64,000 nucleotides of DNA. It comes from Oceanicoccus sp. KOV_DT_Chl. Lineage in GTDB: Bacteria > Pseudomonadota > Gammaproteobacteria > Pseudomonadales > Dasaniaceae. The translations under genes and the position numbers were made by a program. This document shows, piece by piece, positions 27,277 through 30,164 of the stretch. The stretch's first letter is position 1. The number at the start of each line of letters is the position of its first letter. The stretch spans positions 2,046,001 to 2,110,000 of the forward strand of contig NZ_FQLF01000002.1 of the NCBI RefSeq assembly GCF_900120175.1, in the 5' to 3' direction. The notes under the pieces were generated by a model that did not search any database, had not been told where the DNA came from, and saw only the letters and a list, made by a program, of their open reading frames with translations.

Positions 27277-27396
27277 GGATTAACGGAAAGGGCTGTGGAT
27301 GAATCTAACCACGGTGATTCGATGATTTCGTCGGGCAAAAGAAAACCCGCAGTCGTTGCCAAATGCGGGTTTACTTAAGAATAATGGTGCTGGTCG
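27277..27396. repeat. Degenerate solitary copy of the tRNA-Phe-associated repeat
   Basis: About 120 bp match the 170-bp unit found at 28992-29671. The match begins at GGATTAACGG, skips about 50 bp of the hairpin-rich part, and resumes at GTGGATGAATCTAACCAC. It is then nearly identical through the terminator hairpin to AATAATGGTGC. It ends with TGGTGCTGGTCG, a mutated copy of the tRNA 3' end (TGGTGCCCGGTCG). It lies on the far side of fic from the main array. Confidence 0.85.
27343..27372 (-). terminator. Repeat-borne terminator downstream of fic
   Basis: AAACCCGCA (27343-27351) pairs with TGCGGGTTT (27364-27372). On the minus strand the stem is followed by TTTTCTTTT. It lies about 150 bp past the fic stop and would end that transcript. 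Confidence 0.75.
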
Positions 27397-27524
27397 TGTC
27401 TCCCCAACGTTTGATTCAGCCTTGTATTCTAAGGGGGGTGATTCAGTTGGCTTTATATAAGTACCGTCAATCTGCTGAGTGGCGCGTTAATAATTAATAT
27501 TGGGGTAACTGGGCCTTAGAGATT

Positions 27525-28646
27525 TTATTCAGGGGTTTTTTCAGCAAAGTAGGGCACGATTTGGTAATTTTCATAGGTGAATAAGCTCATCAGCTGTGGA
27601 TGAACAAAGAGTTTTTCTTTGCCCGATGCCAGCTCTTCGAGCACGCCAATATCGACCAGTTGTTTTAAGTAGCTGGAGGCCGTTTGGCGCTTGGCAATAT
27701 TACGCTCTACCAGATTTTGAATACGGCAATAAGGCAGTTCGAAAATAAGTTGTACTAATTCATGGCTGTATATTTTGGGCAGGCTTTGCTGAATATGTTG
27801 GCTGGTATGTTCGTTCAGGTAGCGCACCTGCTTGATTTTTTGCGTGGTCCAGCGCGACATTTGGGTAACAGCATCTAACAGGTACAGTATCCAGCTTTGC
27901 CAGTCGGCATCGCTGGTCACTTTGTTGAGTAGGCGGTAATAATCGGCTTTTTTCTGCAAAATGTAGCGGCTTAAATACAAAATGGGCAGCGTGAGCAGTT
28001 GCTGTTCAATGAGGTACAACACATTGAGAATTCGCCCTGTGCGCCCATTGCCGTCGGTAAAGGGGTGTATTGCTTCAAATTGATAATGCGATACGGCCAT
28101 TTTTACCAATGGGTCCAAATCGTCTTGCGCATGCAGAAATGTCTCCCAGTTACTCAGTAAGTCGCGAATGTGCGCTGCCCCTACTGGTGGGGTATAGATA
28201 ATTTCTTTGCTTGTTTGATTAGCGATCACAGTGCCCGGTACTTTGCGCACATCCATCTGGGCATCTTTAATTTGCGAGCAAATGGCAATGGCGGTATTGG
28301 CGCACAGCGGCCGTTCACGAATACCCAGGAAGCCTTCGTAGAGTGCTGTGCGGTAGCGCAATGCCTCTTTGGTGGCTGGATCGGCTGAGGTGCCGCTATC
28401 TGAGTATTGAAACAGGCGATCACTGGTCGTTAGGATGTTCTCAATTTCAGAACTGTCTTTCGCCTCAAGCAGGGGTAGCATGTTGATGAGCAGCCCCTGA
28501 TTTGGCAGTAATTCTCCTGCTTGCTTGAGCTCGGCCAATGCCACTCTGGCTTCAATACAGGCTTTTAATACCACCGGTGTTTCAAGCTCTATGGTGGGCG
28601 GCAAATGAGGAATGTCGTTATAGGGCTGGTCGGGTTGCCATGGCAT
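27525..28646 (-). CDS. fic: Fic-family protein AMPylase, class II (SoFic-like)
   Basis: This 373-aa enzyme is predicted to transfer AMP to Ser/Thr/Tyr of a target protein. The core HPFTDGNGRTGR matches HxFx(D/E)GNGRxxR fully. An N-terminal inhibitory helix motif SSEIEN matches the class II form (S/T)xxxE(G/N), so basal activity should be autoinhibited. The C-terminal winged-helix-like part (YCRIQNLVERNIAKRQTAS) and the whole sequence resemble Shewanella oneidensis Fic. I chose ATG 28646, where the homology (MPWQPDQPYND) begins; an upstream in-frame ATG at 28703 adds 19 residues. No antitoxin gene is adjacent, as expected for class II. It sits between copies of a tRNA-derived repeat. Confidence 0.93.
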   Translation of the reverse strand: MPWQPDQPYNDIPHLPPTIELETPVVLKACIEARVALAELKQAGELLPNQGLLINMLPLLEAKDSSEIENILTTSDRLFQYSDSGTSADPATKEALRYRTALYEGFLGIRERPLCANTAIAICSQIKDAQMDVRKVPGTVIANQTSKEIIYTPPVGAAHIRDLLSNWETFLHAQDDLDPLVKMAVSHYQFEAIHPFTDGNGRTGRILNVLYLIEQQLLTLPILYLSRYILQKKADYYRLLNKVTSDADWQSWILYLLDAVTQMSRWTTQKIKQVRYLNEHTSQHIQQSLPKIYSHELVQLIFELPYCRIQNLVERNIAKRQTASSYLKQLVDIGVLEELASGKEKLFVHPQLMSLFTYENYQIVPYFAEKTPE

Positions 28647-28991
28647 GTTTAAATTCTCTTCTTTTTTCGACACATGGAGAGGGTATGTCGATTGTATCGT
28701 CATATCAATAAAATATGGCGATTTTTTGTATTAATTTAAACATGAAGATATCTTGTGTTTGCAAACTGTCATTTTCTGTATGTATATTGCCTGCCATAGC
28801 TAAACTTGCTGCCAAAGCACGCCGTTAATAGCTTCCAGTATGTCATTTAGGTGCTGTTGTAATACCTTAAGGATGTTTGTGTAGTGTCTATAAAAAGCTA
28901 AAAGTGGGTCGTTACCTAGTTTTCTGTTCGTCGGCTGGTGCTTCTGCTAGCTATCGGCCATATAGGTGCTTGTTGCATCCGCCACGATCTC
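28647..28991. other. Intergenic region upstream of fic
   Basis: This 345-bp region lies between the fic start and the left edge of the tandem array. It is A/T-rich near fic and should contain the fic promoter. I see no gene, no repeat copy and no clear hairpin. The array begins abruptly at 28992. Confidence 0.5.
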
Positions 28992-29671
28992 TCGCGGATT
29001 AAACGGCAGTAGCCGTTTAACACAACCGCAGGTTGCCCGCAGGGTGAACCACATGGATGTGGTGAATGAATCTAACCACAGTGGTTCGATGATTTCGTCA
29101 GGCAAAAGAAAACCCGCAGTCGTTGCCAAATGCGGGTTTACTTAAGAATAATGGTGCCCGGTCGCGGATTAAACGGCAGTAGCCGTTTAACACAACCGCA
29201 GGTTGCCCGCAGGGTGAACCACATGGATGTGGTGAATGAATCTAACCACAGTGGTTCGATGATTTCGTCGTGCAAAAGAAAACCCGCAGTCGTTGCCAAA
29301 TGCGGGTTTACTTAAGAATAATGGTGCCCGGTCGCGGATTAAACGGCAGGAGCCGTTTAACACAACCGCAGGTTGCCCGCAGGGTGAACCACATGGATGT
29401 GGTGAATGAATCTAACCACAGTGGTTCGATGATTTCGTCGTGCAAAAGAAAACCCGCAGTCGTTGCCAAATGCGGGTTTACTTAAGAATAATGGTGCCCG
29501 GTCGCGGATTAAACGGCAGGAGCCGTTTAACACAACCGCAGGTTGCCCGCAGGGTGAACCACATGGATGTGGTGAATGAATCTAACCACAGTGGTTCGAT
29601 GATTTCGTCGGGCAAAAGAAAACCCGCAGTCGTTGCCAAATGCGGGTTTACTTAAGAATAATGGTGCCCGG
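28992..29671 (-). repeat. Four tandem 170-bp repeats downstream of tRNA-Phe, each with a copied tRNA 3' end (rtT-like)
   Basis: The units are 28992-29161, 29162-29331, 29332-29501 and 29502-29671, near-identical and exactly 170 bp. In the tRNA direction each unit begins with the sequence after the tRNA CCA and ends in TCCGCGACCGGGCACCA, the last 17 nt of tRNA-Phe. Complete pseudo-3' ends lie at 29152-29168, 29322-29338 and 29492-29508. The unit most distant from the tRNA (28992-29161) ends only in TCCGCGA. Each unit contains the terminator stem AAACCCGCA/TGCGGGTTT and hairpins TAAACGGC/GCCGTTTA, CCACAT/ATGTGG, AACCAC/GTGGTT and CAACC/GGTTG. Known parallel: the 178-bp repeats after E. coli tyrT carry the tRNA-Tyr 3' end. 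The 71-codon plus-strand frames in the units are not likely coding. Confidence 0.93.
29614..29649 (-). terminator. First terminator after tRNA-Phe
   Basis: AAACCCGCA (29620-29628) and TGCGGGTTT (29641-29649) form a 9-bp stem. On the minus strand it is followed by TTTTCTTTT. It lies 13 nt after the tRNA CCA. The same element recurs in every repeat unit. Confidence 0.85.
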
Positions 29672-29737
29672 TCGCGGAATCGAACCACGGACACGGGGAT
29701 TTTCAATCCCCTGCTCTACCGACTGAGCTAACCGGGC
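29662..29737 (-). tRNA. tRNA-Phe (anticodon GAA)
   Basis: The 76-nt gene on the minus strand starts GCCCGGTTAGCTCAGTCGG and ends CGACCGGGCACCA, so CCA is encoded. The acceptor stem GCCCGGT/ACCGGGC pairs fully. The anticodon arm GGGGATTGAAAATCCCC contains GAA. The T arm GTGGTTCGATTCCGC has the GTTCGA loop. Downstream lies the 170-bp tandem array, so the transcript may be a multi-part precursor. A sigma-70 promoter is visible at 29798-29826. Confidence 0.98.
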
Positions 29738-29826: not shown

Positions 29827-29841
29827 GCCGTAGTCATAGGC

Positions 29842-30116
29842 TTATTTATCGGTATCGGGAACATAGCCTTCGGCTTTGGCGTAATCTTCGCCGGCCATAA
29901 ATTTATCCATTTCCTGTTGTAAGAACTGGCGGGCTTCTGGGTCCATCATATTGAGTTGACGCTCGTTGATGAGCATGGTTTGGTGGGCTTGCCACTCCCC
30001 CCAGGCTTGCTTGGAGATAGTGTCGTAGATCGCCTGTCCTTTGGGGCCGGGTAGGGCGGCGCGGTTAAGCCTTCCAGCTCTTGTTGGTATTTTTTGCAGA
30101 AAACAGTACGTGACAT
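29842..30116 (-). pseudogene. yggX: Fe(2+)-trafficking protein YggX, frameshifted as sequenced
   Basis: This small protein is linked to iron trafficking and protection of Fe-S enzymes. It opens [20 protein letters not shown], with the conserved Cys7, and ends in a YVPDTDK-type tail after [14 protein letters not shown]. The frame breaks at 30047-30050, where the minus strand reads CCCGGCCCC. One extra base (CCG GGC CCC) gives [17 protein letters not shown] and a 91-aa protein of normal length. It follows mutY, as in E. coli. A sequencing deletion is the likely cause. Confidence 0.9.
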
Positions 30117-30164
30117 GGGAATTCCAGTGGCGAGTTTATTAAGGTATAGAAGTTTATTTAAGGC

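Follow-up and report, generated by a model that had tools for sequence, protein, structure and literature searches.

The only tRNA gene detected in the window (the whole 64-kb stretch of DNA that was analysed; ARAGORN, Rfam) is a gene for tRNA-Phe(GAA), and it is followed by a tandem array of four structured units that repeat the 3′ end of this tRNA. Based on structure models and on comparison with other tRNA loci, the array may be the tRNA-Phe representative of a class of tRNA 3′-end repeats that is widespread, largely unannotated and active as RNA, and of which rtT of Escherichia coli would be the described case; the probability of this reading is put at about 0.5.

Tandem Repeats Finder delimited the repeat at 28992–29678, with a period of 170, 4.0 copies, 99% matches and no indels. 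As the tRNA gene lies on the minus strand, the array itself (28992–29661) is located downstream of tRNA-Phe, and its units are numbered here from the tRNA outwards (Table 1). Compared to unit 1, unit 2 differs at one position and unit 3 at two, while unit 4 differs at two positions and has lost its tail. The 17-nt tRNA-Phe 3′ end, TCCGCGACCGGGCACCA, closes units 1–3, and unit 4 keeps its first 7 nt. A sequence-only reading of this DNA had described four 170-bp units behind tRNA-Phe(GAA), with the last 17 nt of the tRNA at the end of three of them and a 7-nt remnant at the end of the farthest one; the former was confirmed by the detected period together with the ARAGORN and Rfam placement of the tRNA, the latter by the sequence itself. 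Since the units differ from one another, and since the contig with the array is 2.47 Mb long in an assembly of seven contigs, an assembly artefact is argued against. Upstream of tRNA-Phe, on the minus strand of the window at 29840–30120, a small yggX-like gene (named by eye) was also noticed; no ORF of at least 80 aa is found there, and its frame looks interrupted, either by decay or by a sequencing error.

Table 1. Features of the tRNA-Phe locus and its repeat units in the window.
Feature	Position	Strand	Basis or remark
tRNA-Phe(GAA)	29662..29737	-	complete, encoded CCA (ARAGORN, Rfam)
Repeat unit 1 (U1), 170 nt, adjoins tRNA	29492..29661	-	R2 match 29510-29600, 21.9 bits, E 0.0024
Terminator-like hairpin, U-rich tail, unit 1 (every 170 nt)	29614..29649	-	U1 fold
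Imperfect inverted copy of tRNA 3′ region, unit 1 (GCCCG...ATCGAACCAC)	29591..29613	-	match 16/27
Direct copy of T-arm 5′ strand and T-loop, unit 1 (GTGGTTAGATTC)	29578..29589	-	sequence
Hairpin block P3-P6, unit 1	29509..29573	-	fold and R2; related inverted block in G009 tmRNA array
Helix P3, unit 1	29558-29573	-	
Helix P4, unit 1	29546-29554	-	
Helix P5, unit 1	29533-29545	-	
Helix P6, unit 1	29509-29530	-	
17-nt tRNA-Phe 3′ end copy closing unit 1	29492..29508	-	sequence
Repeat unit 2 (U2)	29322..29491	-	R2 match 29340-29430, 21.9 bits, E 0.0024
Repeat unit 3 (U3)	29152..29321	-	R2 match 29170-29260, 21.6 bits, E 0.0027
Repeat unit 4 (U4), tail cut after 7 nt (TCCGCGA)	28992..29151	-	R2 match 29000-29090, 21.6 bits, E 0.0027
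Fic/DOC protein (SoFic-like), between unit 4 and fifth unit	27525..28703	-	Pfam PF13784, PF02661, PF21248
Degenerate tRNA-Phe 3′ end ahead of fifth unit	27385..27400	-	sequence comparison
Fifth, degenerate unit	about 27277..27384	-	nt 1-90 at 97% identity, P3-P6 mostly deleted

Read in the sense of the tRNA, the parts of a unit are, in order, a U-tract hairpin resembling a terminator, the inverted copy of the tRNA 3′ region, the T-arm 5′ strand with its loop, helices P3–P6 and the 17-nt tail. This tail runs from the T-stem 3′ strand through the acceptor strand to CCA. The predicted fold of unit 1 has an energy of −71.1 kcal/mol, compared with a mean of −44 for shuffled sequences (z −7.4; 0 of 200 shuffles equal), and its minimum-energy form consists of the terminator-like U-tract hairpin and about three more hairpins. 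In the window units, P4 and P5 are taken as separate hairpins from the comparison with relatives; the minimum-energy fold has one alternative hairpin there. The earlier description of a U-tailed terminator and about four further hairpins per unit was therefore upheld for the terminator-like hairpin, which was folded, but only in part for the others, which number about three in the fold, P4 and P5 resting on comparison. A consensus terminator scan did not call the U-tailed hairpin of the units and called four weaker ones in the P4/P5 part. The full inverted copy in the unit reads GCCCGACGAAATCATCGAACCAC and agrees with tRNA-Phe at 16 of 27 positions; none of the other tRNAs tested exceeded 15. 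It is predicted to pair with the direct T-arm copy in helix P2 and may pair with the tail in helix P1, the latter comprising in the window five pairs in unit 1 (GCCCG/CGGGC), with a mismatch in units 2 and 3, and no partner in unit 4. In several unit types, the inverted copy is predicted to close the block as P1, and the predicted hairpin block occupies the T-loop position of the copied tRNA 3′ end.

The sequence-only reading knew of no other array behind tRNA-Phe, yet the present one is not unique, as tRNA-Phe units were also found in Citrobacter, Serratia, Yersinia, Amphritea and Neptuniibacter; in the loci scanned, no Rfam family matched these units. The units of Enterobacterales and marine gammaproteobacteria share with the window the tRNA and the helix order P2-P3-P4-P5-P6. 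Among the enterobacterial units, P1 has mostly 6–9 pairs; the window units have a weak P1, and sequence identity between the window and these units is low except for the tail and a CACCC/GGGC motif. Covariation was evaluated in 18 of 20 extracted units (L221 and L330 were left out), all enterobacterial, with P6 omitted and the structure set by hand. In total, 96.9% of 520 cells were paired, 8 of the 29 pairs were changed on both sides, and 27 cells were changed on both sides, compared with 4.9 in shuffles (0 of 500 as high). The covariation score was 0.184, whereas slid partners gave 0.017–0.052, a comparison in which the chosen structure is favoured, being derived from the same sequences. The covariation is located in P3 and P5, with P1, P2 and P4 nearly invariant. 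When all 19 tRNA-Phe units were analysed by RNAalifold, only P3 and P4 were recovered because the MAFFT alignment shifts P5 and P6.

A full-length model of the tRNA-Phe unit, tail included (R1), matched the window three times up to E 1, at units 1–3 (E 0.003–0.009, 20–22 bits). The score of R1 leans on the tail, since the tRNA 3′ end alone reached 15.5 bits in G008 and G009, two genomes of the same family, and unit 1 without its tail reached 8.2. Thus, a tail-free model (R2) was built from the hairpin block of the 18 enterobacterial units, without P1 and with the window kept out of training. Over the entire 64 kb, R2 gave exactly four matches up to E 10, and these are the four units (E 0.0024–0.0027). 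Among 26 other loci, a set that includes the window array itself as L253, R2 matched those of Amphritea (E 9.8e-8), Neptuniibacter (1.9e-5) and L377–L379 (3e-8 to 7e-6), and, more weakly, the units of G008 (0.0046) and G009 (0.07). At E 0.001, R1 matched 3 of 114 gammaproteobacterial genomes, the genome of the window not being one of them. In two of the three, the unit stands behind tRNA-Phe and the unusual tail is copied with 0 and 1 mismatch, and no tRNA was found in 3.1 kb around the match in the third. Tails copy the local tRNA even where tRNA-Phe deviates (L377, L378); in G008 and G009 the tail end of the tRNA-Phe units is lost, so that CCA is not always kept. The longest P1 helix that a unit forms with its own tail beats swapped tails in only 48 of 66 units, and in L187, L144, L150 and L222 P1 extends to the acceptor end through G-U pairs. 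The longest array seen, at L264/L294 (G224:C1, 2632465–2633433), has at least six 160-nt tRNA-Phe units with complete tails.

Units with a hairpin block were found behind genes of eleven tRNA species (Phe, Arg, Leu, Pro, Gln, Lys, Tyr, His, Glu, Ser, Asp) and behind tmRNA, and they span Gammaproteobacteria to Gracilibacteria and Paceibacterota. Four genomes of the family, in regions covering most tRNA genes per genome, were searched for the last 17 nt of each gene within 800 nt at up to 3 mismatches. This search yielded a downstream own-tail copy at 13 of 146 tRNA/tmRNA genes (5/36 in G000, 3/35 in G009, 2/40 in G008 and 3/35 in G005) and an upstream copy at none; 12 of the 13 genes have the hairpin block, and tRNA-Met of G005 repeats the whole T-arm instead. 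In chosen regions of a Gracilibacteria and a Paceibacterota genome, both selected because of an earlier scan match, copies were found at 7 of 21 and 2 of 13 genes, respectively. The units behind several tRNA genes at L348–L356 (Gracilibacteria, G395) and L198/L344 (Paceibacterota) have closing helices of up to about 13 pairs. Over all fetched loci, with at most 2 mismatches allowed, downstream copies were present at 76 and upstream copies at 8 of 276 genes, this set being enriched by at least 119 loci from a pattern scan for repeated tRNA-Phe ends; the eight upstream cases are tRNA-Lys and tRNA-Tyr clusters, where the neighbour gene stands upstream. Swapped tails matched in 15 of 1263 trials. 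The 80 pattern loci that were scanned first contained 40 tRNA genes, of which 23 had the copy downstream; upstream copies were absent.

Some of the loci were rejected as being of a different kind. In the Leu loci L133, L149, L334 and L178, as well as in the tRNA-Met locus L376, the repeats span a longer part of the tRNA including the whole T-arm, with no hairpin block in it, and they appear to form a second kind of tRNA 3′ repeat; the copies in L251 and L267 are likewise unlike hairpin-block units. Further observations concern individual loci. The tRNA-Lys and tRNA-Tyr units of L301, L302, L317, L326 and L126, which belong to different genera, have the inverted copy joined to the T-arm hairpin by the same linker, TGAGA, possibly a motif. 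Four weak, evenly spaced R2 matches (E 0.08–0.16) stand behind tRNA-Met in L088 (8506–9173, minus strand), perhaps an array with worn tails, and antisense near-copies of the tRNA 3′ end are found downstream of tRNA-Met in L117 (+41) and L088 (+831).

The hairpin block is not always read in the same direction. R2 matched the strand opposite to the tRNA in E. coli rtT (26.6 bits, with all model pairs standard; E 0.0006), as well as in arrays of tmRNA (L032), Arg (L068, L078, L076) and Gln (L088), with weaker opposite-strand matches at E 0.03–0.12 or worse; one unit of L032 was also matched, more weakly, on the tRNA strand. A BLAST comparison of the window block with the tmRNA array of G009 likewise gave an inverted match (78% over 68 nt, E 1.5e-10). 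Judged by these matches, the tRNA-Phe arrays share one orientation of the block, the other matched arrays have the reverse, and the block sequence is not strand-bound. With tails removed, the block of an Arg array in G000 has counterparts in three other arrays of that genome, namely Leu (86 nt, 84%), a second Arg (42 nt, 88%) and Pro (58 nt, 78%). The Arg–Leu and Arg–Arg matches stop at the tail boundary (within one base), whereas the Arg–Pro match does not, and the matches in Leu and Pro start within GGTTC of the T-arm. Similar block matches link the Ser and Leu arrays of Paceibacterota (104 nt, 87.5%) and the Glu and His arrays of Gracilibacteria (60 nt, 87%). At the level of sequence, the hairpin block is thus common to several tRNA loci of one genome.

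The inverted block in other arrays weakens the reading of the array as RNA and raises two of its alternatives. The first, which is tentative and given somewhat less than even chances, is that such units are modular partners or parasites of tRNA genes throughout bacteria: a cassette placed in the T-loop, in either orientation, would move between tRNA and tmRNA loci, acquire the local tail and give CCA-ended structured RNAs, from E. coli to candidate phyla. The recurrence of the design behind many tRNA species and tmRNA raises the question of how one hairpin cassette can occur across tRNA loci in either orientation and yet end in the tail of the local tRNA.

The second alternative places the function in the DNA, and the helices themselves bear on this distinction. 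If they are used as sense RNA, G-U pairs should be tolerated and A-C should not. For this count, L133, L149, L178, L251, L267 and L334 were removed, 36 of 66 units were kept, the rest (about 70% alike or more) being dropped, and 35 remained after the removal of one L314 unit with a tRNA gene inside. In the terminator parts, the ratio of G-T to A-C was 28:2. In the other helices of the 35 non-redundant units, it was 23:7 (p 0.005), and 13:1 in the longer stems (p 0.002); from nt 60 on, the values were 19:7 (p 0.03) and 11:1 (p 0.006), respectively. Shuffles of the 36-unit set gave 351:357 and 141:127. The first, redundant count of all 66 units was 37:18, and its tRNA control was opposite (11:25). 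This sense-strand preference for G-U is moderate evidence for sense RNA, and single-stranded DNA folded in that sense would also be compatible with it.

Beyond unit 4, a Fic/DOC gene separates the array from a degenerate fifth unit (Table 1). Sequence comparison indicates that the array was once longer than four units and has since been broken, with the cargo having entered inside the tail of unit 4. Cargo between units was found at four loci, namely the window, G008, the tmRNA array of G009 and the Arg array of G000. It consists of lipoprotein-like genes (by eye) in G008, and the Arg array of G000 is interrupted by an 8-kb stretch. At L032 (G009:C9, 7534–12105), about six units stand behind tmRNA (ssrA), and the tmRNA 3′ end is complete in three; roughly 3.5 kb of genes (toxin-antitoxin-like and helicase-like, by eye) split the units into two groups.

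Such cargo is what would be expected if the copied tRNA ends were attachment or landing sites, either of the integrase type or as folded single strands, and the array an integration scar or hotspot. The start of the copied 3′ end at the T-loop, which is the boundary for one class of tRNA integrases, points in the same direction, as do an integrase-like gene (by eye) directly behind the same tRNA-Phe in G005 and the occurrence of the hairpin block in both orientations. Nevertheless, this explanation is considered less likely. The cargo breakpoints lie inside the tail in the window, and inside the unit start in the Arg array of G000; in G008, one is close to the tail and the other within the hairpin block. 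No single crossover point was found at these three loci, and because the breakpoints fall in different parts of the unit, a fixed recombination site is disfavoured; ordinary islands inserting behind tRNA genes would explain the variation. In addition, the sense G-U bias is needless for a double-strand site, units of 130–260 nt are far below ordinary island size, none of the 11 IMG/VR stretches with the tRNA-Phe repeat pattern had a tRNA-attached unit, and no plasmid match to the window unit was obtained at E 1e-5. The suggestion of the sequence-only reading that the copied ends could be recombination sites is thus weakened by the differing breakpoints and the G-U bias, but the inverted blocks keep a DNA-level role alive.

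Within the genus and family, the distribution of the units is patchy. At E 0.01, a homologue of the window unit was found in 0 of 6 other genomes of the genus and in 2 of 3 others of the family. G005, of the same genus, has an identical tRNA-Phe without the array; this gene is followed by another terminator-like hairpin and the integrase-like gene (both identified by eye). With exact 9-nt ends as the pattern, tRNA-Phe arrays were confirmed in at least 5 of the 390 genomes of the order, and with exact 10-nt ends in at least 4 of the 148 genomes of the enterobacterial order, both end patterns being strict enough for the arrays of G008 and G009 to escape them. The Citrobacter unit was absent at 80% coverage from all 5426 E. 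coli genomes searched; a partial match was found in 519 of them, lying within the first 42 nt of the unit among the 15 listed. In a plasmid collection, the same unit had five full-length matches at 91–93%, all in Klebsiella records, one of which is chromosome-sized.

The patchy presence in the genus, the family and both orders, together with the fact that degenerate units are common, would also fit a functionless by-product, in which a tRNA 3′ end and terminator were duplicated, REP-like hairpins were collected and the copies were homogenised by exchange; a resemblance of rtT to BIMEs, stated in part of PMC2965389, is in line with this. Such an origin is nonetheless considered unlikely, as one part order is maintained at eleven tRNA species and tmRNA across phyla, the tRNA-Phe units show covariation and the sense-strand bias is present. 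Moreover, while REP and BIME elements are likewise short extragenic hairpins, the block in this genome sits in tRNA arrays rather than being scattered: REP-like dispersal was absent from the genome, the Phe block was confined to the Phe locus, and matches to the Arg block below E 1e-5 fell within tRNA arrays or a distal piece at a distance of 8 kb, with two short partial matches elsewhere.

Several other candidates were rejected, namely a coding role (the ORFs on both strands of the array have 20–71 aa, and none is Tpr-like by eye), a known RNA family (only the tRNA lies above gathering in the window, and 17 other array matches up to E 10 are far below family scores), a promoter within the unit (all four promoter-like sites are opposite to the tRNA strand, none being on the sense strand), an integron-like cassette array (unsupported, as the cargo breakpoints differ) and phage carriage (the best 20 of 268 phage-record matches cover the tRNA and at most 27 nt beyond).

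If the array acts as RNA, as is preferred here, RNA polymerase would pass the terminator behind the tRNA, and the transcribed unit would adopt a compact fold of several hairpins, closed at its 3′ end by a tRNA-like CCA, the copied tRNA end being placed in or beside the closing helix. Cutting at the CCA by tRNA 3′-trimming enzymes could then release a stable RNA of about 120–170 nt, as annotated for RttR, and unequal exchange between near-identical units would change their copy number. As for the cellular role, our guess is a decoy for tRNA 3′-end processing under read-through, followed by termination control behind the tRNA. Counting against the RNA reading are the terminator-like hairpin ahead of each unit, which should limit read-through, the weak P1 of the window, the identical tRNA-Phe of G005 without an array and the presence of the block on both strands. 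With the same design present behind many tRNA species and tmRNA, in gammaproteobacteria as well as in candidate phyla with small genomes, rtT, an oddity of one E. coli operon with an unsettled role, becomes a class open to comparison, deletion and testing, and annotators gain a structure that Rfam, as far as seen, covers only in its E. coli form.

In the open-access literature, no description of such arrays beyond rtT was recognised. Parts of the published sources mention a possible role of rtT in the stringent response (PMC2965389), support of the helices of the tyrT repeat RNA by covariation (PMC8250186), rttR among REP-bearing loci (PMC12306157), rttR in a table (PMC4606813) and tRNA fragments arising from integration (PMC9897764). 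Compared to the att sites of tRNA-targeting integrative elements, window-type arrays share the duplicated tRNA 3′ end from the T-loop and the nearby cargo, but differ in their short tandem units, their variable breakpoints and in that no integrase was found in the array.

The repeats of E. coli tyrT were reportedly described about 1979. These units (rtT, RF00391) are about 170–180 nt long, have the part order of the window units and are each closed by the tRNA 3′ end. In MG1655, they are made up of the tail of tRNA-Tyr, a spacer, GGGGAAGGAT...CTTCGACC (inverted), AAGGTTCGA (direct T-arm strand), hairpins and AATCCTTCCCCCACCACCA, and are located at +178, +356 and +534 from the tRNA. The annotated RttR ncRNA stops at locus position 1167, on the CCA that closes the first unit, so that a CCA-ended unit RNA has a precedent. 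The window array differs from rtT in being attached to tRNA-Phe rather than tRNA-Tyr, in having a U-tailed hairpin in each unit and in the opposite orientation of its hairpin block, R2 matching rtT on the strand opposite to the tRNA. The Rfam RtT model matched nothing in the window, with no hit in the array up to E 10 (gathering score 45 bits), whereas E. coli itself scored 134–138 bits. In E. coli K-12 (L126), the reverse-complement rtT block at 810–894 and 1166–1250 on the plus strand gave 25.7 and 26.6 bits with R2. The parallel to rtT that the sequence-only reading had drawn therefore stands as regards the tandem units ending in the local tRNA 3′ end, the part order, the end of RttR at CCA and the R2 matches to rtT, but not as regards the orientation of the block or a match to the Rfam family; on the basis of these comparisons, rtT and the tRNA-Phe type seem to carry the same block, turned round in one relative to the other.
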